Positions 2,754-17,224 of a DNA stretch of 20,450 bases are shown here, in pieces. The stretch spans positions 1 through 20,450 of the IMG/VR virus record IMGVR_UViG_3300021519_000094; one strand, written 5' to 3'. The number at the start of each line of letters is the position of its first letter. Position 1 is the first letter of the stretch. The notes under the pieces are model-generated. The model saw only the letters and a list, made by a program, of their open reading frames with translations, searched no databases and had not been told where the DNA came from. Source of the stretch: a virus. Position numbers and translations under genes: made by a program.

Positions 2754-5700
2754 TCATGTCGATCGAAGGGCCACATTCTGTGGGAATGTGGTGTATCCAT
2801 CAATTCCCGCCGCACCCGAGATAGCCACCAGGTCCACCTCGCCTGTCACGGTGGACAAGGCCGTGTCAATCTGAAGAAGCCCATTTCGCTTGGGTGCAAT
2901 GTCATTTGATGCCGGCTCAGAGTAAATCCTAATGTCTGGGGCGACGGTCGCGGTGTTGACTCCCGAGATGAAGATCTCGTATGCCGTCGACGTGTCAGGT
3001 GTGAATGTGGCCGACGGAGTGAATGTGAATGAATTGGCCGTGGCCGAAGCGATCAGCCCCGTGATGCCAAAGCCTGTACCTGACGTGATAAGCACGGAAT
3101 ATCCCGTGGGATATGATCCTGCCACCGCGTTCCAACTCTTGGAAGTGTCCGTGATCGTGACTGAAGTCGTTCCTCCTCCAGATGACGAATAGGCTACGCC
3201 GGTTTCAGATCGATACAGGTCGCACTTACCGGTCGCAGGATACAGCGTCCCGACCAGGATATCAGTTCCAGGCGTGGGAACTCCCGCCTTATCCGTGGAC
3301 ATGTACAATTTTCTATTGGTCGTGGATCCTGAATCCACGCCATCCTTTAGATGATATCCCAGCTCCGGGCCACTAAACAGCAATGAAGTGGCCACGGTCC
3401 CAGAGGTCGGGGCCGATAGCTCGGCGACATGTGCGTTACTGAAGCTGGCGGATGAGACGGCTCCAAGGTGTGGAGAAGAGACGGAAATCATCATGCCCGT
3501 CGCCGTCAGGGTGGTGGAATATGTCGACGTGATTGGCCCAGACAGGCCAAGAGTGACGCCCGTGAAGGTTACCGCCCCAGAGCCCCCGCCAGTCCCCGTG
3601 ATGGGTGAGGCGAATGTGATTATAAGATTGGCGCTGGCCGTATCTAAAGCAACGGAAACGACCGACCAGCCAATATTGGCGCCGGCAAAACCACCAGACC
3701 CACCCGAGCTCGTAGATATAACCATTCCCGGTGAGATCGTGCCCGTGAGATTTGTCGTGTTGTTCGGGACCGTTATCACATAAGATGAGGAATGGGAGGA
3801 AGCAGAGCTTATGTATGTGTAGGCCGGTCCGATGGAGGTTACAAGCGTGTTGTCCGGAACGCCAGTTCCAGATATGGAGGCGCCGGCCGCCGTTTTAACA
3901 AACTGCGCGGAGCCCGTGACGGTTGTGGAATTTGGGACGGAAAGAGTGATCGTGGTCCCAGATATTGCAGTCACCAAGGCGCCCGCGCCGATACCTCCAC
4001 CCAAAGAGCCCGTGCCCACGGCCGTCGGACAATTGGCCACGGATTGGCCTACGGCGATTCCCGTCGCGGAAGAGACCACGATCGTGGAGGAGCCGGATGA
4101 TCCCGTAACGGCCGTGATGCCTGAGCCCGCAAGCCCGTCGGCAATCGATACGGTCGCAAGCCTTAGGCCATTCGATGTATAAGACTTGGAAGAGCCCGAG
4201 AAATACAATGGGGTGATCGCCGTGACCCGAGCACTTGGCACAATTCCCGTGCCGGAGGCAATCGATCCGATCACACACGGATAGGTTGTTTCAGGAGAGA
4301 CCAGGGTCGATCCCAATATCACTCCGGAAGCAAGGGTCGGATATGCGCCATCCGAAAGAGATGTGACGGCCGTTGAATTAAATGTTATGGTCCCAGACAT
4401 TGTCCCCGCTGATTTGGAAAGTGTGATATTGGTGTTTGCGCCTGATGTGATTGCAGTAGCTACAAATGTATTGGCTGGGATATTGGCGCCAGTTACTAAT
4501 GCCGATACCGTGATACCTGAGGCCGTATCAACCGTCAACTGCGTTCCTGAGCCAGAAACATATGTGGCCGTTTTTGCCGGTATGCCCGTGCCAGAAATTA
4601 TCATACCAGTTGCAATTCCGGGATTAACACCTGTCAATGTGATCGTTGAAGATCCAGAGATGCCTTGTGCCGAGGCCGATACATTGGGCGTGTAAGCCCA
4701 TGAATCCGACTGAATCAATGGAATCGCCTGATCAACGGTTCCATTAAGGCCGCCCGGAAACTGCACGGAAAGAAGCTTCCCTCCCTTTAACGCGGCCAGA
4801 GTTGTCGAGGCCAGAGGATTAGCCGTGAACTTCTTGTAGAAATAGATGTTTGCCTCAGAATTGATTATCGCTGGATTTGATGTATCAATCTGATCTAGAA
4901 GGTTTGAATATCGAAAAATGCCGTCAAAGCGCTCAAGGTTATTGAGTGAGTAATTCTTGACCAATGCCTTGACGCCGTCCTGAAGATCTGATCGAGGCTG
5001 AGTGGTCAGATTCGATGAATACTTGAAAAATACATCCGCATAGATGTATGTGTAGTCAGGATCCACAAAGTTGGTACGAATCGTCATGACCCGCTTTTCC
5101 GCCAGAACCTGAGAGATGGCCGCTTTCTGAACCGCGCTCAGGTTCGATGTGGTGCCAAGCTGTTTGATCGAGATGTATACCTGTCCTGCATAGACCGAAG
5201 CATTCCGCGGATCATATTGCACCTCGTCTTCACCGCCCCAAACGGAAAGTGATGAGATGTATGCGAAGTTGTTGAGGAGAATCGCCTTGTAATCATTGGC
5301 CGTAACGGCCCGGTTTTGTGTGATAAGTGATTGCGGCGCATTAAATCTGACCGATTCTATAGACTCCGCATCTCCGCCTGAGGCGGATGTGAGAACCGTT
5401 GAGATTACTGGAGTTCCGGTAACGCTCCCATCCGTGCCTGAGGCAAAGGTGAATAGAGAGGCACCATTGGCTGGGACGCCTGAAGTGGCTACAAATTCAA
5501 GGGAGACAACATTGAGATTCTTAAGGGTCACGCCAAAATTAGGCGCGCCGTTTGCCGCAGGTTGGCCAAATGAGATCTCATATTGCCCATACACATTCTG
5601 CGAGATAAAATACACGGCAGAATTTGCGGCCGTTGTTGAGAACGAGGAGAACGGCACAAAGGTGGTGTATTTGGATGAATTCTCATAGTCATACACGCGA

Positions 5701-6533
5701 ACCAGAAGAGTCGAAATATCCACGTTAGGATCGGCGATAATGAACTTCTGATTAACCACTGAATTATCCACGACATATGACACGGCTCGAAGCGTGCCTT
5801 CCACAACCCGGATCATCGCATTGGGTGAACCCTTAACGGCGATCGTGTAATGAGTCGTGGAGTCAGGAATGAATGTTTGCGTGCTCGCAAAGGTGAGAGT
5901 GTTGGCCGTGGATGAAAGAATATCAATTGAGTTTCCTGAGCCTGTCCCGTCAAAGATATAGGCGACATATGAGGTGTCGCCGACTGGATTCCATGTTCCT
6001 ACAACCCAATTCTGCGTCGCGTCATACAGTTTTGTGGGCCCAACGGGGGATGTCGCATAGCTTGGAGAGATCACGCCATATGTGAACTTGTATGTCCCAT
6101 CATATGATTTAGAAACGTTTGTCGCGGCGGGGGTGACAAACGTGTATGCAACGGAATTAAGTGTCGAGGTAAACTGTGTTCCACGCGGAAGAGTATATGT
6201 TGTCGCCGCCGAAGCTGGATTTGCCGTGAATGTGGCGGCGAGCAGGGCCTCAGCTCCTTTAACGGAGCGCGGGAGATATCCGAGCAATTTAGCCTGAGAT
6301 GTAACGGATGAGCGAAGCTGTGCCGTGTCAATAAAGCTCTCGTTCAGGGTCATGTGCGCCAGCATCGCATTGTATTGCGTATTGTATGCCAAGACATCAA
6401 GGAGCATGTTGAGGCCAGAGCCATTGAAATCCCAATCCGTGAACGGCGACGATTGCCGCTTAAAGTATGACTTAAGATTTGCCTTGATCTGGTCGAAATC
6501 AAGTTCCGTAACATTGAGGGTCGCTTGTGCCAT
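2754..6533 (-). CDS. 6: Baseplate wedge subunit gp6 (baseplate J-like), enlarged by insertions
   Basis: gp6 in T4 dimerises to form the ring of the baseplate inner wedge. The N-terminus is diagnostic: LDFDQIKANLKSYF (11-24), DWDFNGSGLNMLLDVLAYNTQYNA (33-56, highly conserved) and ESFIDTAQLRSSV (65-77). Residues 395-600 match the gp6 core (TANDYKAILLNNF, a DPDYTYIYADVFFKY strand, RFDGIFRYSNLLDQID). The end resumes gp6-type sequence at about 1055 (GPELGYHLKDGVDSG) and 1210-1259 (NDIAPKRNGLLQID). At 1259 residues it is nearly twice T4 gp6 (660). The excess is an approximately 440-residue block of Gly/Ser/Thr beta modules (about 615-1055) and two copies of a separate module near 170-235 and 1125-1191. 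It lies between gp25 and the gp7-position gene, in T4-like order. No Shine-Dalgarno sequence; CTTAAATA lies 6 bases before the ATG. Confidence 0.93.
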   Translation of the reverse strand: MAQATLNVTELDFDQIKANLKSYFKRQSSPFTDWDFNGSGLNMLLDVLAYNTQYNAMLAHMTLNESFIDTAQLRSSVTSQAKLLGYLPRSVKGAEALLAATFTANPASAATTYTLPRGTQFTSTLNSVAYTFVTPAATNVSKSYDGTYKFTYGVISPSYATSPVGPTKLYDATQNWVVGTWNPVGDTSYVAYIFDGTGSGNSIDILSSTANTLTFASTQTFIPDSTTHYTIAVKGSPNAMIRVVEGTLRAVSYVVDNSVVNQKFIIADPNVDISTLLVRVYDYENSSKYTTFVPFSSFSTTAANSAVYFISQNVYGQYEISFGQPAANGAPNFGVTLKNLNVVSLEFVATSGVPANGASLFTFASGTDGSVTGTPVISTVLTSASGGDAESIESVRFNAPQSLITQNRAVTANDYKAILLNNFAYISSLSVWGGEDEVQYDPRNASVYAGQVYISIKQLGTTSNLSAVQKAAISQVLAEKRVMTIRTNFVDPDYTYIYADVFFKYSSNLTTQPRSDLQDGVKALVKNYSLNNLERFDGIFRYSNLLDQIDTSNPAIINSEANIYFYKKFTANPLASTTLAALKGGKLLSVQFPGGLNGTVDQAIPLIQSDSWAYTPNVSASAQGISGSSTITLTGVNPGIATGMIISGTGIPAKTATYVSGSGTQLTVDTASGITVSALVTGANIPANTFVATAITSGANTNITLSKSAGTMSGTITFNSTAVTSLSDGAYPTLASGVILGSTLVSPETTYPCVIGSIASGTGIVPSARVTAITPLYFSGSSKSYTSNGLRLATVSIADGLAGSGITAVTGSSGSSTIVVSSATGIAVGQSVANCPTAVGTGSLGGGIGAGALVTAISGTTITLSVPNSTTVTGSAQFVKTAAGASISGTGVPDNTLVTSIGPAYTYISSASSHSSSYVITVPNNTTNLTGTISPGMVISTSSGGSGGFAGANIGWSVVSVALDTASANLIITFASPITGTGGGSGAVTFTGVTLGLSGPITSTYSTTLTATGMMISVSSPHLGAVSSASFSNAHVAELSAPTSGTVATSLLFSGPELGYHLKDGVDSGSTTNRKLYMSTDKAGVPTPGTDILVGTLYPATGKCDLYRSETGVAYSSSGGGTTSVTITDTSKSWNAVAGSYPTGYSVLITSGTGFGITGLIASATANSFTFTPSATFTPDTSTAYEIFISGVNTATVAPDIRIYSEPASNDIAPKRNGLLQIDTALSTVTGEVDLVAISGAAGIDGYTTFPQNVALRST
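3369..4691 (-). repeat. Beta-module insertion block within gp6
   Basis: This stretch encodes about residues 615-1055 of the gp6 homologue. The repeating pattern is roughly G-S-S-T-I-T-(L/V) followed by a Gly-rich turn, G-M-x-(I/V)-S-G-T-G-(I/V)-P, a (T/L)-V-T-x-I strand and T-I-T-L-S, ending in T-x-x-G-x-x-x-F. Clear copies begin near residues 627, 672, 815 and 885. T4 gp6 has nothing comparable, and conserved gp6 sequence resumes on both sides. Boundaries are approximate. Copies are diverged at the DNA level, so this is an old protein-level expansion rather than a recent tandem repeat. Confidence 0.7.
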
Positions 6534-7014: not shown

Positions 7015-7022
7015 TATTTATT
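7015..7022 (-). promoter_or_regulatory. AATAAATA junction octamer before gp25
   Basis: Leftward AATAAATA matches the late octamer TATAAATA at 7 of 8 bases and overlaps the gp5 stop codon. It ends 7 bases before the gp25 ATG, so transcription from it would be nearly leaderless. It may be a weak late promoter or simply an A/T-rich translation-start context. Confidence 0.35.
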
Positions 7023-7734
7023 ACGGATTCAGGTCTATTCGTGTGGCACTCAAGGTATAGTTTCCAGCTACTTTATGATACACATTTCCGGCCGTGAACA
7101 TGTGCATGTTGCCCGCCGCATCAAATTCGATAAACGAGCCGGATCGATGGGTGATTGATATCCGCTCATATCCGGGCGTATCATCATATTCGACCGTGTG
7201 ACCAGAATTGGTGGTCAGGACCTGGTTAAGCGGATAAGTCGGCCTGATCCGGGAGTCAGAAGATGGCTGGCCTGAAATGGTCCCGGCCGCGGCCTTGAGC
7301 TTGTATGCGCTAGATTCTTTGTACCTTGATGTCGCCGCGAGCGGAGTATCCACGCCTTCAGTCTTGGGATTGACTCCGGTCGGATCAGAGAATCCCCTCC
7401 CTTTATCGGCCTTGTACGATTGAGAAGGCACGGTCCCGATGATCAAAGGATCCTGTGCGGATTGGCCATCGCGGAAAAAGCCAATCACCCATGAGCCACG
7501 AAGCACGCCGGTCCCGGATATTCCAGCCCCAGCCATGGATGGCGAATTAACCGGGAGTGTGACAATTGCCCAAGGAAGTGATGCCGTAGGAATCGCCGAT
7601 AGGTCATCCGTGTGATATCCTACACACCGAACCCTGACACGACCCATTTCGAGAGGATCATTAACATCTTCAACCACGCCGTGAAACCAGCAATAGGTCT
7701 GGGCTGAATTGGCAAAATTGTCTTTCGGATCCAT
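7021..7734 (-). CDS. 5: Baseplate hub gp5-like OB-fold protein lacking the lysozyme domain
   Basis: 237 residues against 575 in T4 gp5. The first 110 residues form the OB-fold that seats gp5 on the gp27 ring: a WFHGVVEDVNDPLEMGRVRVRC start, LPWAIVTLPVNSP, then GSWVIGFFRDGQSAQDPLIIGT. The T4 lysozyme domain (T4 residues about 174-339) is absent; a short linker leads into a VgrG-type tail with HTVEYDDTPGYERISITHRSG (179-199) and SFIEFDAAGNMHMF (200-213). The needle is tiny: only about one VxGNYxL turn before the end. gp5 forms the trimeric puncturing needle under the hub, so cell-wall digestion must come from another protein or be dispensable. It lies 3 bases after gp27, its structural partner. 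AATAAATA ends 4 bases before the ATG. Confidence 0.88.
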   Translation of the reverse strand: MDPKDNFANSAQTYCWFHGVVEDVNDPLEMGRVRVRCVGYHTDDLSAIPTASLPWAIVTLPVNSPSMAGAGISGTGVLRGSWVIGFFRDGQSAQDPLIIGTVPSQSYKADKGRGFSDPTGVNPKTEGVDTPLAATSRYKESSAYKLKAAAGTISGQPSSDSRIRPTYPLNQVLTTNSGHTVEYDDTPGYERISITHRSGSFIEFDAAGNMHMFTAGNVYHKVAGNYTLSATRIDLNP

Positions 7735-7737
7735 ACA

Positions 7738-9162
7738 TTATTTATTGATGTCGTATGAGAGTGAATCCCGCTTAACGCGAAGCTTGCAATAATACTCCGC
7801 GCCAAATGTGTGTATGATCGATGTCACGATATACGTTCCCGAAAGAACGCGATCATAGATGTCATCATCGCTTTTCGAGGCCGTTTTATCATATGCGCCA
7901 AAGTCAATCGCCTTGGGAATTTTAAGAACCACCCTTTTACCTGCCGACAGTGTAAAGTCACCGGCAATGGTGAGATCATGGACAAATGCATCCATGTTCT
8001 CGTTAAACGCGTCAAGATATGAGAGGTTGGCCGGAGATAGGCCATGATAGTTCGAGACGGATCCGTCAGATGAAAATGCGTATTTGTTGGTTGGAACATG
8101 CCCTCGCTTGGCATTGTGCATGTCCTGAAATCCTTTTGAAGAAGGACTCTGAATATCGCTTATCGTGCCTGATGCGTTGCCATTGCGCTTGTCGGCATTT
8201 TTAAGCGGAAGCATGAATTTATCTGAGAGGAGAGAATATCCATTCAGGGTCACGGTATCATCAAACGCATCCGAATAGTTGTAAACTTCCGTCGATAATT
8301 TCTTGGTTGAAAGATCCATGAAAAGGCCAGTTGACCCATATGCGCCACCCATCGCCGGAAGAATCTTGGATAGTTTGAACTCCGATGAAATTGAGTAAAT
8401 TCTCTCCTGGCGCTGCTTAAAGTCCGCCTCCGTTCCCGCGACCGTGTTGAAAATCTTATGGTCAAAATACGTGCGATGGATCGGATTGATTGCCGGATCA
8501 AGGAGGCGCGCATATGATCTGAGCTGAATGCCATCTCGAAGTGTCTCATGGAGAAAGAACGGCGCGGACTTGGCCGTGTCATATGTTCGACGAAGAAGCC
8601 AGGAGGCCGCGTCGAGCGGGTTCATGTACGGGATAACGCCGTGAAAGCGAGAGGAGGCCGCGTCCCATGTCCCGATCTTTGAGGCATTGAGATCGTTGGC
8701 TAAAATACTTCGAATCTCTTCAGATGTCACATTCTGGACGGCGCGTGAAATGCGAAGAAGTTTTGAGAGGTACGCATGCCTTGAGACACCAACAATCGCA
8801 TATACCTGCGTGCTTTGTTGCTTGTCCGCGCGACCATACAATGGATATTCCGTGACAAAGAATTTCAGATCAACGCTCAGGATCTCTGCGGAGGCATAGT
8901 CCTGGCGCCCAATCTTAACATCGATGGTCTCTTGCCCATTAAGCTCATATTCTTCGATAAAGTTCGCAACATCCTTGATGTTGGCCTTGAAAATAAGCGA
9001 AGATGTGTAGAGAGACTCCGTGATCGAGAAATCCGTGATGATGTTCTGAATGTCGGCGGTTTTGCCCGCGTGATTGGTCAGGACAATTGCATCAATATTG
9101 TATGCAAGAGGCGTGAGGGCCTTGAGCGTGTTAGGCTTTACATTTGCGCGGGTAGTGGGCAT
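7738..9162 (-). CDS. 27: Baseplate hub gp27-like protein
   Basis: 474 residues; T4 gp27 is 391. gp27 trimers form the torus that links gp5 to the tail tube. Supporting features are the N-terminal AYNIDAIVLTNHAGKTADIQ strand, the ITDFSITESLYTSSLIFKANI segment (typical of the gp27/gpD tube-like domain), SRHAYLSKLLRISRAVQNVTSEEIRSIL (168-195), and a late FTLSAGKRVVLKIPK strand before the VLSGTYIVTSIIHTF segment common to hub proteins. Its neighbours gp53 (one-base overlap, TAATG) and gp5 (3-base gap) support the call. The start relies on translational coupling; no Shine-Dalgarno sequence is visible. Assignment rests on pattern and context, since gp27 homologues diverge widely. Confidence 0.85.
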   Translation of the reverse strand: MPTTRANVKPNTLKALTPLAYNIDAIVLTNHAGKTADIQNIITDFSITESLYTSSLIFKANIKDVANFIEEYELNGQETIDVKIGRQDYASAEILSVDLKFFVTEYPLYGRADKQQSTQVYAIVGVSRHAYLSKLLRISRAVQNVTSEEIRSILANDLNASKIGTWDAASSRFHGVIPYMNPLDAASWLLRRTYDTAKSAPFFLHETLRDGIQLRSYARLLDPAINPIHRTYFDHKIFNTVAGTEADFKQRQERIYSISSEFKLSKILPAMGGAYGSTGLFMDLSTKKLSTEVYNYSDAFDDTVTLNGYSLLSDKFMLPLKNADKRNGNASGTISDIQSPSSKGFQDMHNAKRGHVPTNKYAFSSDGSVSNYHGLSPANLSYLDAFNENMDAFVHDLTIAGDFTLSAGKRVVLKIPKAIDFGAYDKTASKSDDDIYDRVLSGTYIVTSIIHTFGAEYYCKLRVKRDSLSYDINK

Positions 9163-12143
9163 TATGTGTTGATGGTTGTGCGATATGTCTGGGCGAAGGC
9201 TCGAATATCCTCCGCGCGCACCACGCGTATATTTGCCCGCGCATCATTGAGCTCGAGCTCATGATCCGCATACAGTGTGGTGGAGACCGGAGCTACATTT
9301 CCCGCAAGTGCATCATGGGCCGTCACATTTCTTCCACCTGAATCGGAATATGAATATGGCGCATTTCGCGCAGAGTCAATGGTCGCATATGGCGCGTATG
9401 TGACCACTGAGCCAGAAAAGATCAGATTTGCCGTTGGAATCGCCGGAGATATGAACTTCTCTGAATTTCCATCCCGCCAATCATTATATGATACGGTCCA
9501 GGCATAATTGGCCGAAGCGGCCAAATTGAACTCTGATCCAGGGTTAAGATTTGTGAAATTTGGATTAAGCGTCTCAAGCGTGAAGGTAGATGGCACTTGT
9601 GTCGGAAAATCAGATGGATTGAATGTCGTTAGCCTATCGATAAATGATGAGTCAATGATCTTGGCCGACACGGTTAATTCTATTTTAGGCTGGATAAACT
9701 TTGCCGATACTCCAGATATAAATGGCATCACACTCACTAAAACTGGATCGGACACTATTCGACCAAAAGCGTCCACGGTCATCCCAGTAGTAGGTAGGAT
9801 ACCTACGGCGATTGATCCGACCGTGATTATATTTCCACTTGAATCTGCAATTGAGAGTGGCGCGAGCGCCGAGCCTGAGCTTGTCGTTGTGACCACGGGT
9901 ACAGGAAATGGAATACCCGTAGTTTGTAGATTTAAGTTTGTTGAGGTGGCCGTGTAGAACAAAAGTGGAGATGTTGCACTCGCCGTTACGGCAGAGGAAA
10001 AATAGCTCCCGGCCGTGGCTAGCACCACCTTGGAATATGACCGAGTAAAAGTAAGACTGGAACCAGAAGAAATCACACTGCCTGAAGTGAAATTGCCACC
10101 TCCTCGATTTATAATGTTAATTCGTCCATTTGACGCATCTATCCCGACTACTTGAAATGGGCCAACAAGACCTCCTGAAGCGATGGCGTCCGTATACAGA
10201 TTTGCTCCACTTACATAATCAAGAAGAGAGATTTGAGGTATATTGCCAGTGGAGATGTTAACTCTAACAGTGTCTGCCGCACTGGGCGCGCCCACGCCCG
10301 AGTCTGGAGGTGATATGGAACCGGCACTTGGTACACTCTTTACTACCGGAGAGCCGACGGAAAGGACAGAAACGGAGCCATCCGTAATACTCCCTAGATT
10401 TCCACCCACGGCTTTCTGACCAGCTTGGAGTCCGTTATCCAATTGAACAACGATTGTACTTGAGCCAGTAATGCTTGAAAATGTAGCATTGATTGTAGTT
10501 CGAGATGCGACCGGTATAGGCAACGGTGTTGATATTGCATTTATCTTGGTGACCGGCGCGCCGGTCACGGAAATATTACCACCCACGAGATTGCCCGCAA
10601 TAAGCGTAGAGCCCGTAGGAGTGATGACATCAATATTACCGTAGCCAGGTATACCTCTCTGGAATGTTAATGTCGCGGAGGAAATATTGCCATAGAGAGG
10701 CTTAGAGATATTAACGACTATGTGATTGAGAAGTGAGTAGATGATCACGGAATTAACCACGGATCCTGCCTGAATATTTTGCCCCGTGACATTCATACCC
10801 GCGGCAATGTGTGAAAAATAAACAGTTTCGGATGATATTCCACCGAGATTGATCTCGGTGGAAATACCAATAACCGTTGGAGATGTGACGCTTGTGACAC
10901 GTGTTCCTTCTGGAATGCCCGCGGCGCCATACATTGCCATGCCAACCACAATTCCAGAATTAGTCGAAATCGTAAGTGAAGTGGCACCTGGGGAGGCCGT
11001 GCAGGTGGCCGTGGTGACCGAGCCTGAGGTAATCGACCCCGTGAGTGTCACTGATCCTGAAGTGCCAGTGAAAGGCGCCGTGAATGACGCTAGGCCAGGA
11101 AACACCGTCGTGGAACCGAGCAGGATAGGATGTGTCACCTCGACAAGAGGAGGACGACTGTATCCTGCGCCAGGATTAGTCACTCTTAATCCTACCCTCC
11201 CATAGAGGTCAGAATATATCGCCAATTCAGCGGAGATGGCCGGTGTCTCATCAATTGCCACCTTGATGGGCACGCCGCCATCAAATTCAGAGATATATCC
11301 TGATCCGGGCTCAAGAAGCCGAAGGCCCGTGATGGATCCTGAGCTTCCACTTGACAGGATAGGTTCCACTAGGCATCCTATCCCATTTCCGCCTGAAACG
11401 ACTGCTCGTGGAAACAGTGAAAATGGGCCGCCAGTATTCTTAGCCTGAGAGGCGATTGATATCACTCCGACCGTTCCTTTCTTGATCCAGAGCTGATTTC
11501 GATCTGGGTCATACTTAACGATCCTGGCCAATGCGCCAGAACTTATTTCACGAAGACATACGTTAGGGTTTGTGGAGAAATCTATTCCATTCAGCGCGTT
11601 GATCTGATTGACCCCCGCTTCGTTCAGCGAATATGACCAACCTGAATTGAGACCTACTCGACTAGCAATTTGCTTTGGAGATAGCCACCAGGTGCGATCA
11701 GAAAGAGTCGGCCTATTAAGCGTGCCATTTCCATCCACATATCCGATACCCGTCAGAATGAGGGATTCCGACATGACGAGCACACCGTAATCGTCATATT
11801 CCGCCGCCATGTATCGCTCAAGCTGGCCCGGAGACATAGGCCACGCCGGAAGACCTGACTTGAGCGAATTGTTGATCACAAAGAATGTCCAATAATAGTC
11901 AGGATCTCGGTACAGGAGCTGCGACACCGTATCAGGCCTATCGCCATTCTGAATCCGATAGAACTGGTATGCGATGGCCTCATTAAGCTTGCCCTGATTA
12001 ACCGTGGCATTTCGAAACAAGTCAACAACATTGGTCTTAACGCCTGATCTGGTCCTGATCTGATCGGCCCGAGGAACATTGATGTTTTGGATCAGGGCGC
12101 CAAAATCATAGGTTGTTATGGGAAACTGGCGAAAAAATGACAT
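9162..12143 (-). CDS. 53: Baseplate wedge gp53-like protein with a giant central insertion
   Basis: 993 residues, five times T4 gp53 (196). gp53 links neighbouring wedges in the assembled baseplate. Residues 1-120 are gp53-like: FRQFPITTYDF, a block VDLFRNATVN, then DRPDTVSQLLYRDPDYYWTFF (68-88), the LysM-like core motif, and WPMSPGQLERYMAAEYD. The last 45 residues (LYADHELELNDARANIRVV and RAEDIRAFAQTYR) are the expected gp53 C-terminus. Between them lie about 700 extra residues: two GxGY-x-P-x-V modules (near 280 and 325), then Gly/Ser/Thr beta modules with a GMAMYGAAGIPEGTRVTSVT core (401-420), related to those in gp6. The gap after gp48 is 8 bases, A-rich and without Shine-Dalgarno. Confidence 0.88.
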   Translation of the reverse strand: MSFFRQFPITTYDFGALIQNINVPRADQIRTRSGVKTNVVDLFRNATVNQGKLNEAIAYQFYRIQNGDRPDTVSQLLYRDPDYYWTFFVINNSLKSGLPAWPMSPGQLERYMAAEYDDYGVLVMSESLILTGIGYVDGNGTLNRPTLSDRTWWLSPKQIASRVGLNSGWSYSLNEAGVNQINALNGIDFSTNPNVCLREISSGALARIVKYDPDRNQLWIKKGTVGVISIASQAKNTGGPFSLFPRAVVSGGNGIGCLVEPILSSGSSGSITGLRLLEPGSGYISEFDGGVPIKVAIDETPAISAELAIYSDLYGRVGLRVTNPGAGYSRPPLVEVTHPILLGSTTVFPGLASFTAPFTGTSGSVTLTGSITSGSVTTATCTASPGATSLTISTNSGIVVGMAMYGAAGIPEGTRVTSVTSPTVIGISTEINLGGISSETVYFSHIAAGMNVTGQNIQAGSVVNSVIIYSLLNHIVVNISKPLYGNISSATLTFQRGIPGYGNIDVITPTGSTLIAGNLVGGNISVTGAPVTKINAISTPLPIPVASRTTINATFSSITGSSTIVVQLDNGLQAGQKAVGGNLGSITDGSVSVLSVGSPVVKSVPSAGSISPPDSGVGAPSAADTVRVNISTGNIPQISLLDYVSGANLYTDAIASGGLVGPFQVVGIDASNGRINIINRGGGNFTSGSVISSGSSLTFTRSYSKVVLATAGSYFSSAVTASATSPLLFYTATSTNLNLQTTGIPFPVPVVTTTSSGSALAPLSIADSSGNIITVGSIAVGILPTTGMTVDAFGRIVSDPVLVSVMPFISGVSAKFIQPKIELTVSAKIIDSSFIDRLTTFNPSDFPTQVPSTFTLETLNPNFTNLNPGSEFNLAASANYAWTVSYNDWRDGNSEKFISPAIPTANLIFSGSVVTYAPYATIDSARNAPYSYSDSGGRNVTAHDALAGNVAPVSTTLYADHELELNDARANIRVVRAEDIRAFAQTYRTTINT
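9429..11426 (-). repeat. Central beta-module insertion block within gp53
   Basis: Encodes about residues 240-905 of the gp53 homologue, between conserved N- and C-terminal gp53 sequence. It begins with two GxGY modules (GSGYISEFDGGVPIKV and GAGYSRPPLVEV), continues with GMxxxGxxIPxGTxVTxV-type modules, and then lower-similarity Ser/Thr/Val-rich sequence. Boundaries are approximate. No such insertion exists in T4 gp53. Confidence 0.65.
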
Positions 12144-14804: not shown

Positions 14805-15521
14805 ATGATGCTACCTATACTTGAGACGCCTAAATTTGAAACCATGATTCCTTCTTCCAAGAAGGTGGTGGAATTTCGCCCATATCTTGTCAAGGAAGAG
14901 AAGATCCTCATGATCGCCCTTGAATCCAATGATGAACGCCAGATGCTTCGCGCGATGAAAGAGGTTATCCGCGCATGCACATTTGACAAGATTAACCCTG
15001 ATGACCTGGCAATCTTTGACCTCGAATACCTGTTCTTGAAGCTCAGGGCAAAGTCCGTGGGCGAGAATGTCACACTTCAGGTTAAGTGCAAGACGTGTGA
15101 TGGATCGACTCCGGTTGACATTAACATTGACGAAGTCGAGGTTAAGTTTCCAAATGGCAAGGACATCAAGAAAAGCATCTGGCTCACGGAGAACGTTGGC
15201 ATCACGCTCAGGCCAATTTCCATCAAGAGCCTATCACGGCTTGATTTGCCAGATCCATCAGATAAAACGGCCCGAATCATGGAGCTTCTGGCCGCGTCGA
15301 TCGAAACCATCTTTGATCGTGAAAAGGTGTATCCGGTCGAGGACGTGTCAAAGGAAGAGATCATGGCCTTTATCGATTCACTTAATCGAGCACAAATTGG
15401 AAAGATAGAGGAGTTTGTCACGAGCCTCCCTAAACTTGAAAAGGAAATCAAGTTCACCTGCGCAAAGTGCACGGGTCAAAGTGAGATCACTCTATCAGGA
15501 ATCCAAAGTTTTTTCGCATAG
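14805..15521 (+). CDS. 26: Baseplate hub subunit/assembly protein gp26
   Basis: 238 residues; T4 gp26 is 208. gp26 belongs to the T4 baseplate-hub family and is needed to build the hub. Diagnostic segments are VEFRPYLVKEEKILMIALES (22-41), FDKINPDDLAIFDLEYLFLK (60-79, the strongest signature) and LRAKSVGE (80-87). Two CxxC pairs, C95/C98 (CKTC) and C219/C222 (CAKC), lie at matching ends of a strand-rich domain and could bind one zinc. ATG codons at 14805 and 14808 are both possible starts, with AGGA 10 bases upstream. The last sense codons AGT TTT TTC GCA before TAG contain a T-TTT-TTC slippery heptamer, so a -1 product extended into the next frame (about 303 residues) is possible. It precedes the gp51-position frame and a tape-measure-like gene. 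Confidence 0.88.
   Translation: MMLPILETPKFETMIPSSKKVVEFRPYLVKEEKILMIALESNDERQMLRAMKEVIRACTFDKINPDDLAIFDLEYLFLKLRAKSVGENVTLQVKCKTCDGSTPVDINIDEVEVKFPNGKDIKKSIWLTENVGITLRPISIKSLSRLDLPDPSDKTARIMELLAASIETIFDREKVYPVEDVSKEEIMAFIDSLNRAQIGKIEEFVTSLPKLEKEIKFTCAKCTGQSEITLSGIQSFFA
15509..15515 (+). promoter_or_regulatory. Candidate -1 programmed ribosomal frameshift site (T TTT TTC)
   Basis: In the gp26 frame the codons run AGT TTT TTC GCA TAG, so the heptamer T TTT TTC is correctly phased for tandem -1 slippage (X XXY YYZ). After slipping, reading continues CGC ATA GGC from 15515 and stays open for 66 codons to TAA at 15713-15715. That frame has no upstream start codon of its own. The 0-frame stop is one codon after the heptamer. 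No strong downstream stem is obvious: a 4-base GGCC pairing (15521-15524 with 15541-15544) is weak. Confidence 0.55.
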
Positions 15522-15715
15522 GCCTTTCCCATGACTCTCTGGCCAATTTCTACAATGTCAACTTTGAGATGATCCAGCGGCATGGATACTCATTGACGGA
15601 ATTGGAACATATGATACCATGGGAAAGGGAAATTTACGTAGGTCTCTTGATTCAATTCATCAAAGATGAAAATGAAAAGCAGAGAAAAGAGATGGAAGCC
15701 GCAAAACGGAGATAA
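15515..15715 (+). CDS. gp51-position hub-assembly frame, likely read as a -1 extension of gp26
   Basis: Open frame of 66 codons filling nearly all of the space between gp26 and the tape-measure-like gene. It reads as real protein: HDSLANFYNVNFEMI, RHGYSLTELEHMIPWEREIY, then VGLLIQFIKDEN and a charged tail EKQRKEMEAAKRR. A Tyr/Leu-rich helix, then WEREIY, then an acidic/basic helix is the sort of pattern seen in T-domains of tail-assembly chaperones. In T4 the gene after 26 is 51, a hub-assembly catalyst of 249 residues, so the match is by place, not by size. The only in-frame ATG early on is at 15569 with no good Shine-Dalgarno, which would give a 48-residue protein lacking the conserved front. 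A -1 frameshift from gp26 explains the frame better. Expression mode is inference. Confidence 0.65.
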   Translation, partial: RIGLSHDSLANFYNVNFEMIQRHGYSLTELEHMIPWEREIYVGLLIQFIKDENEKQRKEMEAAKRR

Positions 15716-15721
15716 ACAATC

Positions 15722-17224
15722 ATGCCCAACGCGACATTTACAGACATAGTGGAGGAACTCAAGGTGACAAATAAAGCCTTGGGAGGCCTTGATGTCGATA
15801 TTGGGTTTATGTTTGATGTATTGGTTCAATCAAGCAATGCATCGGCTGAAATGTTCAAGAGCATGATACGCTCGATTGAGAGTATCGGAAGTCTTAATTC
15901 TGTGCCTGCCGGCAACTCAGGAGGCCCTCAAGGAGGCAACTTTGTGTCCGGAGGCAACTCAGGAGGCACTCAAGGAGGCGGGAGCAATGAAGTGCCCGAG
16001 ATAAAGTTTAGACAAACTATATCATCCATACTTAAAGGCTCCACGCTTAACATGCTAGGAACAAAGTTTCCTTCGATGATAAAAAGCACCAAGGGTGGAT
16101 TTGATAAGATGGGTGAAATGGTTACTGGACTCGGAAAAGAGTCCATTGAACGAGGTGCGGCGAACCTAAGCTCATTGTCCTCCGCATTCACCTCATTCGC
16201 AGAAGTTAAGTGGAGTAAAGTGCTTTTTGGCATAGGTGCCGTGAGGCTGATTGGTCCTTTGTTTTCTAAACTAGGAACAATTCTCGGAAGCGCCGAAAAT
16301 ATGAAAGGGCTTGCGAGCTTCGACAAATTTGCCAAACGGCTTGGATCCATCGCCGAAGCTCTCTCGGGCACGTTTGCCAAGATAGGAAATGCTATCGGCC
16401 AAGTGATCTCTGGCATATTTCAAGGAATCGCCGATGGCCTCTCCGCGCTGGCAAAACCCAAGGTGTTTATAGGCATTCTGGCCATGGCGCTTTTGGCCGC
16501 TCCTGTCTATCTGATGGCCAAAGCATTTCAGGAGTTCTCTGAAGTGGGCTGGGGAGATGTTGCGATTGGCGTCACGGCGATTGCGCTGCTTGCGGCTGGG
16601 GCCATGGTGTTAGGCACGCTCTGGTCCTCAGGCGTCCTTCCACTCGGCATTCTTGCATTAGGTGGCCTCGGACTCGCGGCGATGGCATTCGGCGCGGCGA
16701 TGCTTATGGCTGGAAAAGGCATGTCACTTTTTTCTGAAGGATTAGGAGGCATGGTTGATCCGCTCATCACGCTTGCGGGAATCGGGCCTGAACTTCTAGT
16801 CACGGCCGCGGCGATCGGTGCCGTGGGAGTTGCACTTGCCGCATTTGGCGTAGGTCAAGGCGTCGCGGGAATTGGCGCATTCTTTGGTAGACTCCTGGGT
16901 GGAGAGTCTCCAGTTGACAAGCTCATGAAGCTCGCGGCCCTTGCCAAGGGTCTGACGGAAACGGCCAATGCCATGGATCGGATCAATTCGGCCATTTCCA
17001 CGACCGCCCCTAAGACATCACGTCAGATGGGTCAGCTTCAGGCTGAGTCGGATTCCATGTCCGTTGCCGCGGCCGGAACTCCCATGGTCACGATGCCGAT
17101 GGGTGGCTCAGGTGCATCCGGGCAAGGGTCTTCAAATGTCACCAACAATGTAACTTCCACGATCGTCAATTCCGGATACATGCCTGATCGATCCACGGCC
17201 TTGGTTCTCTCACCCGCATTCTGA
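15722..17224 (+). CDS. Putative tail tape-measure/hub-associated protein
   Basis: 500 residues. The N-terminal 60 residues are helical and polar (FTDIVEELKVTNKALGGLDV). A Gly/Ser/Gln-rich linker (about 63-87) holds two near-identical GNSGG(P/T)QGG units. From about residue 165 to 390 the protein is dominated by Ala/Gly/Leu-rich hydrophobic helices such as VFIGILAMALLAAPVYLMAK and DVAIGVTAIALLAAGAMVLG, as in tape-measure proteins that later enter the host membrane. The C-terminus has NNVTSTIVNSGYMPDRS. Its place directly after gp26 and the frameshift-linked frame is where tape-measure genes follow tail chaperones; T4 has gp29 (590 residues) in the same neighbourhood. No sequence signature proves gp29 identity. 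GGAG 10 bases before the ATG is one of the better Shine-Dalgarno sites here. A hairpin follows the gene. Confidence 0.6.
   Translation: MPNATFTDIVEELKVTNKALGGLDVDIGFMFDVLVQSSNASAEMFKSMIRSIESIGSLNSVPAGNSGGPQGGNFVSGGNSGGTQGGGSNEVPEIKFRQTISSILKGSTLNMLGTKFPSMIKSTKGGFDKMGEMVTGLGKESIERGAANLSSLSSAFTSFAEVKWSKVLFGIGAVRLIGPLFSKLGTILGSAENMKGLASFDKFAKRLGSIAEALSGTFAKIGNAIGQVISGIFQGIADGLSALAKPKVFIGILAMALLAAPVYLMAKAFQEFSEVGWGDVAIGVTAIALLAAGAMVLGTLWSSGVLPLGILALGGLGLAAMAFGAAMLMAGKGMSLFSEGLGGMVDPLITLAGIGPELLVTAAAIGAVGVALAAFGVGQGVAGIGAFFGRLLGGESPVDKLMKLAALAKGLTETANAMDRINSAISTTAPKTSRQMGQLQAESDSMSVAAAGTPMVTMPMGGSGASGQGSSNVTNNVTSTIVNSGYMPDRSTALVLSPAF
15911..15979 (+). repeat. Imperfect 27-base direct repeat in the Gly-rich linker
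   Basis: Two copies, 15911-15937 and 15953-15979, identical at 26 of 27 bases and offset by 42 bases. Each encodes GNSGG(P/T)QGG in the tape-measure-like gene. The near-identity points to a recent in-frame duplication in a flexible linker, a place where copy number could vary between related phages. Confidence 0.85.

Follow-up and report, generated by a model that had tools for sequence, protein, structure and literature searches.

A probable -1 frameshift at the tail assembly chaperone gene of an uncultivated T4-like phage, with a conserved RNA stem downstream

Gene layout of the locus

The window analysed here is the whole 20,450-base IMG/VR record IMGVR_UViG_3300021519_000094, a single contig from an uncultivated T4-like phage. 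Profile matches identify homologues of gp32, gp59 and gp33 in it, together with gp6, gp25, gp53, gp48, gp4, gp2, gp5 and a tail tube protein; scanning it against Rfam and for tRNAs yielded no match. The locus of interest comprises a gp26 gene, a second open frame that overlaps its end in the -1 register, and a large ORF immediately beyond, and its best match among isolates has about 41% identity. Its features, all on the + strand, are:

14805..15521 (+): gp26, or TAC-N, the putative short form of a tail assembly chaperone (TAC), 238 aa (PF12322, 1.5e-60; phrog_150, 2.9e-64)
15497..15500 (+): AGGA, a weak and possible Shine-Dalgarno-like element, 8 nt upstream of the heptamer
15509..15515 (+): candidate slippery heptamer T TTT TTC, -1 type (in frame in 251/253 relatives; in 114/114 representatives against 46 expected)
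15515..15715 (+): -1 frame extension of 66 codons plus TAA, the putative TAC-C or gp51 C-terminal part (phrog_634, 2.9e-25; coding pattern; hhalign to the T4 gp51 C-terminus, E 6e-7)
15516..15522 (+): spacer between heptamer and stem, 7 nt
15519..15521 (+): zero-frame stop TAG, one codon past the heptamer (0 or 1 codon past it in 245/251 loci)
15523..15533 (+): 5' arm of a conserved RNA stem, CCTTTCCCATG (synonymous-site covariation)
15618..15628 (+): 3' arm of the conserved RNA stem, CATGGGAAAGG (synonymous-site covariation; uninterrupted 11-bp stem in the window)
15722..17224 (+): downstream ORF, 500 aa, tape-measure-like by position and hydrophobic segments

The gp26 gene ends CAA AGT TTT TTC GCA TAG, and its heptamer is phased with the gp26 ORF, as a preliminary description of this DNA had pointed out. 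In the -1 register the reading frame stays open between 15485 and the TAA at 15713-15715, and the ATG of the next ORF (15722) follows 6 bases on. Both the coordinates and the coding pattern described below agree with the earlier claim of a 66-codon coding frame ending just ahead of that gene, and the predicted product of about 303 residues had the right size, given that the shifted product would comprise 237 + 66 = 303 aa. The downstream ORF matches a tape measure profile weakly (phrog_10613, E 0.41) and contains six hydrophobic 19-mers.

Elsewhere in the window, the gp5-like protein (7021-7734, - strand) has only 237 aa, with an OB domain, and seems to be without a lysozyme domain, since its tail lysozyme profile matches cover short parts of far longer models. 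Three baseplate-region proteins, an 871-aa unknown, a gp6-like protein of 1259 aa and a gp53-like protein of 993 aa whose gp53 match is its first 120 residues alone (98-2713, 2754-6533 and 9162-12143, - strand, respectively), carry long Ser/Thr/Gly-rich stretches of a similar type, for example GSSTITLTG...GIATGMIISGTGIP, which look like one repeat domain added to several baseplate proteins.

Conservation of the heptamer and of the -1 frame

Relatives were gathered from IMG/VR and from annotated phages, and the 253 counted are those with gp26 and a gp51-like frame adjacent, T4-type genomes, in which 26 and 51 are divergent, being left out. An in-frame T TTT TTY lies close to the gp26 stop in all but two of these (251/253), and in every one of the 251 the -1 frame extends for 55 codons or more. 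A non-redundant set of 114 representatives, sharing less than 70% protein identity, has the NNT TTT context without exception, where amino acids and codon usage predict 46.4 occurrences (log10 P = -45.8), whereas other Phe-Phe pairs in the same genes have it in only 2 of 65 cases. The comparison proposed in the preliminary description, made across these relatives, found heptamer, phase and open -1 frame all conserved. The slip site is a run of six T, extended to seven in a third of the relatives. Within 20 nt upstream of the heptamer, 73 of the 114 representatives carry a Shine-Dalgarno-like tetramer; it falls on a conserved Gly codon and is at best a weak candidate for an upstream stimulator.

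The two exceptions are Maynard, a Salmonella phage, and VPALA, a Vibrio phage. Both have an open -1 frame and a non-canonical junction: A ATT TTC in Maynard, where the frame matches phrog_634 weakly (E 0.0028; L092, 3281-3464), and A CTT TTC in VPALA, where it has no profile match (L093, 3152-3371).

The extension shows the evolutionary pattern of a protein-coding sequence. Of the differences, 30%, 16% and 53% fall at codon positions 1, 2 and 3, and the -1 frame has no stops, whereas the remaining two frames contain 3.6 and 4.4 per 42 codons. The 66 residues match phrog_634, the gp51 family labelled 'baseplate hub assembly catalyst', over positions 59-119 of 121 (E 2.9e-25), and also the C-terminal end of phrog_150. 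The first ATG, GTG or TTG of this frame in the window is the ATG at 15569, 18 codons past the shift point, which bears out the earlier statement that the frame has no start codon near its beginning. The same holds widely among relatives, a point that the preliminary description had proposed to check: 92 of the 114 representatives have no -1-frame ATG up to 40 nt past the gp26 stop, and a Shine-Dalgarno-like motif precedes the first -1-frame ATG in only 3 of the 114.

Individual phages vary in this respect. In the Vibrio phages PG216 and nt-1 and the Stenotrophomonas phage Mendera (L087 around 3328, L095 around 2851 and L089 around 3229, respectively) the heptamer is accompanied by an ATG that overlaps the gp26 stop in the -1 frame, and the C-terminal part may therefore be produced on its own as well. 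Annotation of the gp51 extension is missing in S-CAM1, DSL-LC03 and Aswh_1 (L002, 3215-3398; L097, 3233-3400; L094, 3206-3368), and in S-P4 and Mosig it begins at an internal start. Many public gp51 annotations in such phages are start-truncated or missing, and could be corrected.

Relation to T4 gp26 and gp51

In T4, genes 26 (208 aa) and 51 (249 aa) are transcribed divergently, which rules out joining them by a frameshift. Residues 1-201 of T4 gp51 nonetheless form a PF12322 domain (3.9e-52), and phrog_150 spans its residues 3-248 (2.6e-84). The fusion predicted in the window aligns with T4 gp51 end to end, from residue 14 to 245 and including the junction (hhalign probability 99.2, E 2.2e-19), with VFKLLVNP of T4 gp51 placed under FFRIxLSH of the fusion. 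T4 gp26 aligns with the part of the fusion that precedes the junction and ends GAG TTC TTT GAG, so the heptamer is gone in T4. The pairing of gp26 with gp51 made in the preliminary description therefore stands, with one refinement: the extension does resemble the gp51 C-terminus, but T4 gp51 is more than a 66-aa tail and has a gp26-like domain of its own, which identifies T4 gp26 with the short form and T4 gp51 with the long form.

Gene counts follow the same division. One PF12322 gene is present in each of the 12 searched records with a canonical heptamer (S-PM2, S-CAM1, P-SSM4, S-P4, PG216, ACP17, Mendera, DLP6, Aswh_1, nt-1, Mosig and DSL-LC03), and two, divergent, in all seven T4-type records (T4, Lazarus and five others); the window, itself a fragment, contains one. 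The simplest reading of these sequences would be a duplication, with one copy kept as the short form and the other as the fused long form.

Predicted fold

The AlphaFold2 model of gp26 (mean pLDDT 94) has an N-terminal domain of 85-94 residues that matches 3fgx (Z 8.0, 85 residues, rmsd 3.8 A) and the HK97 tail assembly chaperone 2ob9 (Z 7.3, 83 residues, rmsd 3.9 A), the latter score lying under the aligner's advised Z of 8 yet well above background; the next-best structural match reaches Z 2.8. Foldseek alone, run with the gp26 model against the PDB, returned no significant match, and we therefore regard the fold match as good, not overwhelming. The model of T4-type gp51 (pLDDT 82.9) finds 2ob9 at only Z 3.7 and, in a viral library, matches the gp26 and gp51 proteins of many T4-like phages; Foldseek with this model returned no significant PDB match, and a gp51 sequence search of the PDB found nothing. 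The short form, gp26, is thus predicted from these matches to have a TAC-like N-terminal fold.

A conserved RNA stem past the heptamer

In the window, CCTTTCCCATG (15523-15533) pairs with CATGGGAAAGG (15618-15628) in an uninterrupted stem of 11 bp that starts 7 nt past the heptamer. The 120-nt stretch folds at an MFE of -38.4 kcal/mol (z -3.58 against dinucleotide shuffles), compared with -22.7 +/- 3.2 for synonymous shuffles. The initial 60-80 nt alone are not unusually stable, since the 3' arm lies 85 nt further on.

The pairing is maintained by synonymous change. Among 97 ungapped representatives with a PWE[RK] motif, the two column pairs with the highest corrected mutual information of all both belong to the stem. 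One joins the third positions of a Leu codon (CTN) and a Glu codon (GAR), with T-A in 34 sequences, C-G in 28 and other T/C by A/G combinations in 12 (Fisher 7e-10); the other joins those of the codon preceding that Leu and an Arg codon (AGR), with C-G in 55 and T-A in 12 (Fisher 1e-7). A sign test on supported branches did not reach significance, there being too few independent pairs, and we therefore used a likelihood test of dependent change on the gp26 tree with empirical controls. The two pairs gave likelihood ratios of 53.6 and 49.9, against a maximum of 35.1 among 370 control third-position pairs (mean 17.1, sd 5.8); judged by these controls, the chi-square p values of the same test are too small.

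The stem is concentrated in the 68 sequences with LSH in the extension. All six core pairs form in 58 of these, compared with 36 +/- 2.4 under column-preserving synonymous shuffles and with 0.4 when codons are redrawn from usage elsewhere in the extension; the stem is also present in 61 of the 68 individual minimum-energy folds, and the mean z against within-sequence synonymous shuffles is -2.38 in this group compared with -0.65 for a control stretch in gp26. RNAalifold run on all 97 sequences together predicted no structure, since about 30% of them, S-PM2 and P-SSM4 included, lack the stem; on the 68 LSH-type sequences the default version gives the stem at only -0.48 kcal/mol and the ribosum version at -21.95. 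The full core is formed by the Pelagibacter phage Mosig but not by S-PM2, P-SSM4, S-CAM1, S-P4 or DSL-LC03. Within a large group of marine relatives, most of them uncultivated, the stem is a genuine RNA structure.

In the 46 representatives that do not belong to the LSH group (L001 and L003, for instance), the downstream regions have a mean z of -1.30 against synonymous shuffles, with 13 of the 46 under -2, and a different stimulator may exist there.

Discussion

On the strength of sequence conservation, homology, fold similarity and RNA covariation, we conclude with high confidence that this locus encodes the tail assembly chaperone of a T4-like phage, as a short form and, by -1 fusion, as a long form. 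The comparison with lambda G/GT offered in the preliminary description gains support from the heptamer's conservation, the gp51-like 66-aa segment, the T4 gp51 alignment and the gp26 fold, and the sequences indicate that a tail-chaperone frameshift of that type very probably operates at the end of gp26. From this we infer both the slipping and its rate: most ribosomes would stop at 15519 and yield the 238-aa gp26/TAC-N, and a minority would slip by -1 at T TTT TTC and yield a 303-aa product ending in a gp51-like TAC-C domain. By analogy with lambda gpG/gpGT, the tape measure protein would carry a coat of both forms, the long form serving to recruit tail tube subunits, while the RNA stem 7 nt past the heptamer would probably raise the slip rate. 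In T4, two genes, 26 for the short form and 51 for the long, would have replaced the frameshift.

Could the gp51-like frame be a small gene of its own, started at an internal ATG or by reinitiation past the gp26 stop, with no fusion at all? GenBank annotates cyanophage gp51 in that way, and an ATG lies no more than 5 nt from the stop in some relatives (overlapping it in PG216, nt-1 and Mendera), but the window offers no start before 15569, where initiation would drop the first 18 conserved residues, and among the representatives early ATGs are mostly missing and Shine-Dalgarno motifs nearly absent. A separate gene would also leave the conserved heptamer unexplained, and in T4 gp51 the two parts are naturally fused at the same junction; we consider this reading quite improbable. 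Still less credence goes to RNA polymerase slipping on the T run and producing mixed mRNAs. The six T, or seven in some relatives, would give it a substrate, but bacterial transcriptional slippage usually requires longer runs, and translation agrees with both the strict codon phasing and the ribosome-like spacing of the stem. As for a sequencing or assembly error that splits one gene, the locus does lie on a single 20,450 bp contig, but the arrangement recurs in 251 loci, finished phage genomes among them, and we rejected this possibility as next to nil.

What the stem does is a question apart from the frameshift itself. It may be real but serve a different purpose, for example in stabilizing the mRNA or in regulating the downstream gene, and do nothing for slipping; its absence from many frameshift-type relatives, which means that it is not essential for the frameshift in general, speaks for such a role, which we nevertheless think unlikely, as the 7-nt start falls inside the usual heptamer-to-stimulator spacing of 5-8 nt (PMC4066793). 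Judged by that spacing, the stem likely stimulates slipping. On balance we lean towards a chaperone frameshift that, in a large and mostly uncultivated marine group of T4-like phages, is tuned by an undescribed stem with a loop of about 84 nt and paired synonymous changes.

The abstract of a 2022 study of T4-like tail chaperones reportedly names 26 and 51 as chaperone genes and describes frameshifting as conserved in several T4-like groups. By its title and the papers that cite it, that study (Vladimirov, Gautam & Davidson, Virology 2022;566:9-15) concerns T4-like tail assembly chaperones with gp26 as TAC-N and gp51 as TAC-NC; of the papers citing it, one states that a short and a long chaperone gene occur in some T4-like phages (PMC10885494) and another that TAC-N genes of T4-like phages carry poly-T slippery sites (PMC12846349). 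To the extent seen through these sources, the short-gene/long-gene solution of T4-like phages is already published, and the unification of 26 and 51 with the frameshifted chaperones, put forward as new in the preliminary description, was proposed there. The present analysis adds broad sampling, the one-versus-two gene count and the RNA stem. The frameshift would also account for two earlier observations: G-T type frameshifting being widely conserved 'except T4' (Atkins et al. 2016; PMC5009743), where the two forms are split into two genes, and cyanophage gp51 being without the first ~200 residues of T4 gp51, unexplained in the survey of Sullivan et al. 2010 (PMC3037559), where gp26 supplies the missing part. 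The literature searched, to which the full text of Vladimirov et al. 2022 did not belong, makes no mention of the stem, which may be a new element. Through it, the proportion of short to long form becomes open to testing and perhaps to tuning.

Comparison with known systems

The locus involves the same protein families as the T4-like chaperones of Vladimirov et al. 2022, as far as the title and citing papers of that study tell. With the HK97 tail assembly chaperone (2ob9) it shares the predicted gp26 N-terminal fold, but gp26 continues into a further C-terminal domain, some 150 residues long, for which the PDB offers no clear match. A parallel in predicted organization is lambda gpG/gpGT, which likewise pairs a short form with a -1 fusion and has its heptamer near the end of the short gene; the tape-measure-type gene that follows in lambda may have its counterpart in the tape-measure-like downstream ORF. 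The lambda heptamer is G GGA AAG, whereas the one found here is T TTT TTC; gp26 is larger than its lambda counterpart, and, in a further departure from lambda, there is a conserved 3' stem whose whole core forms in about 60% of the relatives tested (58/97). The combination of a slippery heptamer with a 3' stem at 5-8 nt spacing recalls the -1 signals of E. coli dnaX and IS911, from which the stem described here differs in closing a loop of ~84 nt that is itself coding.
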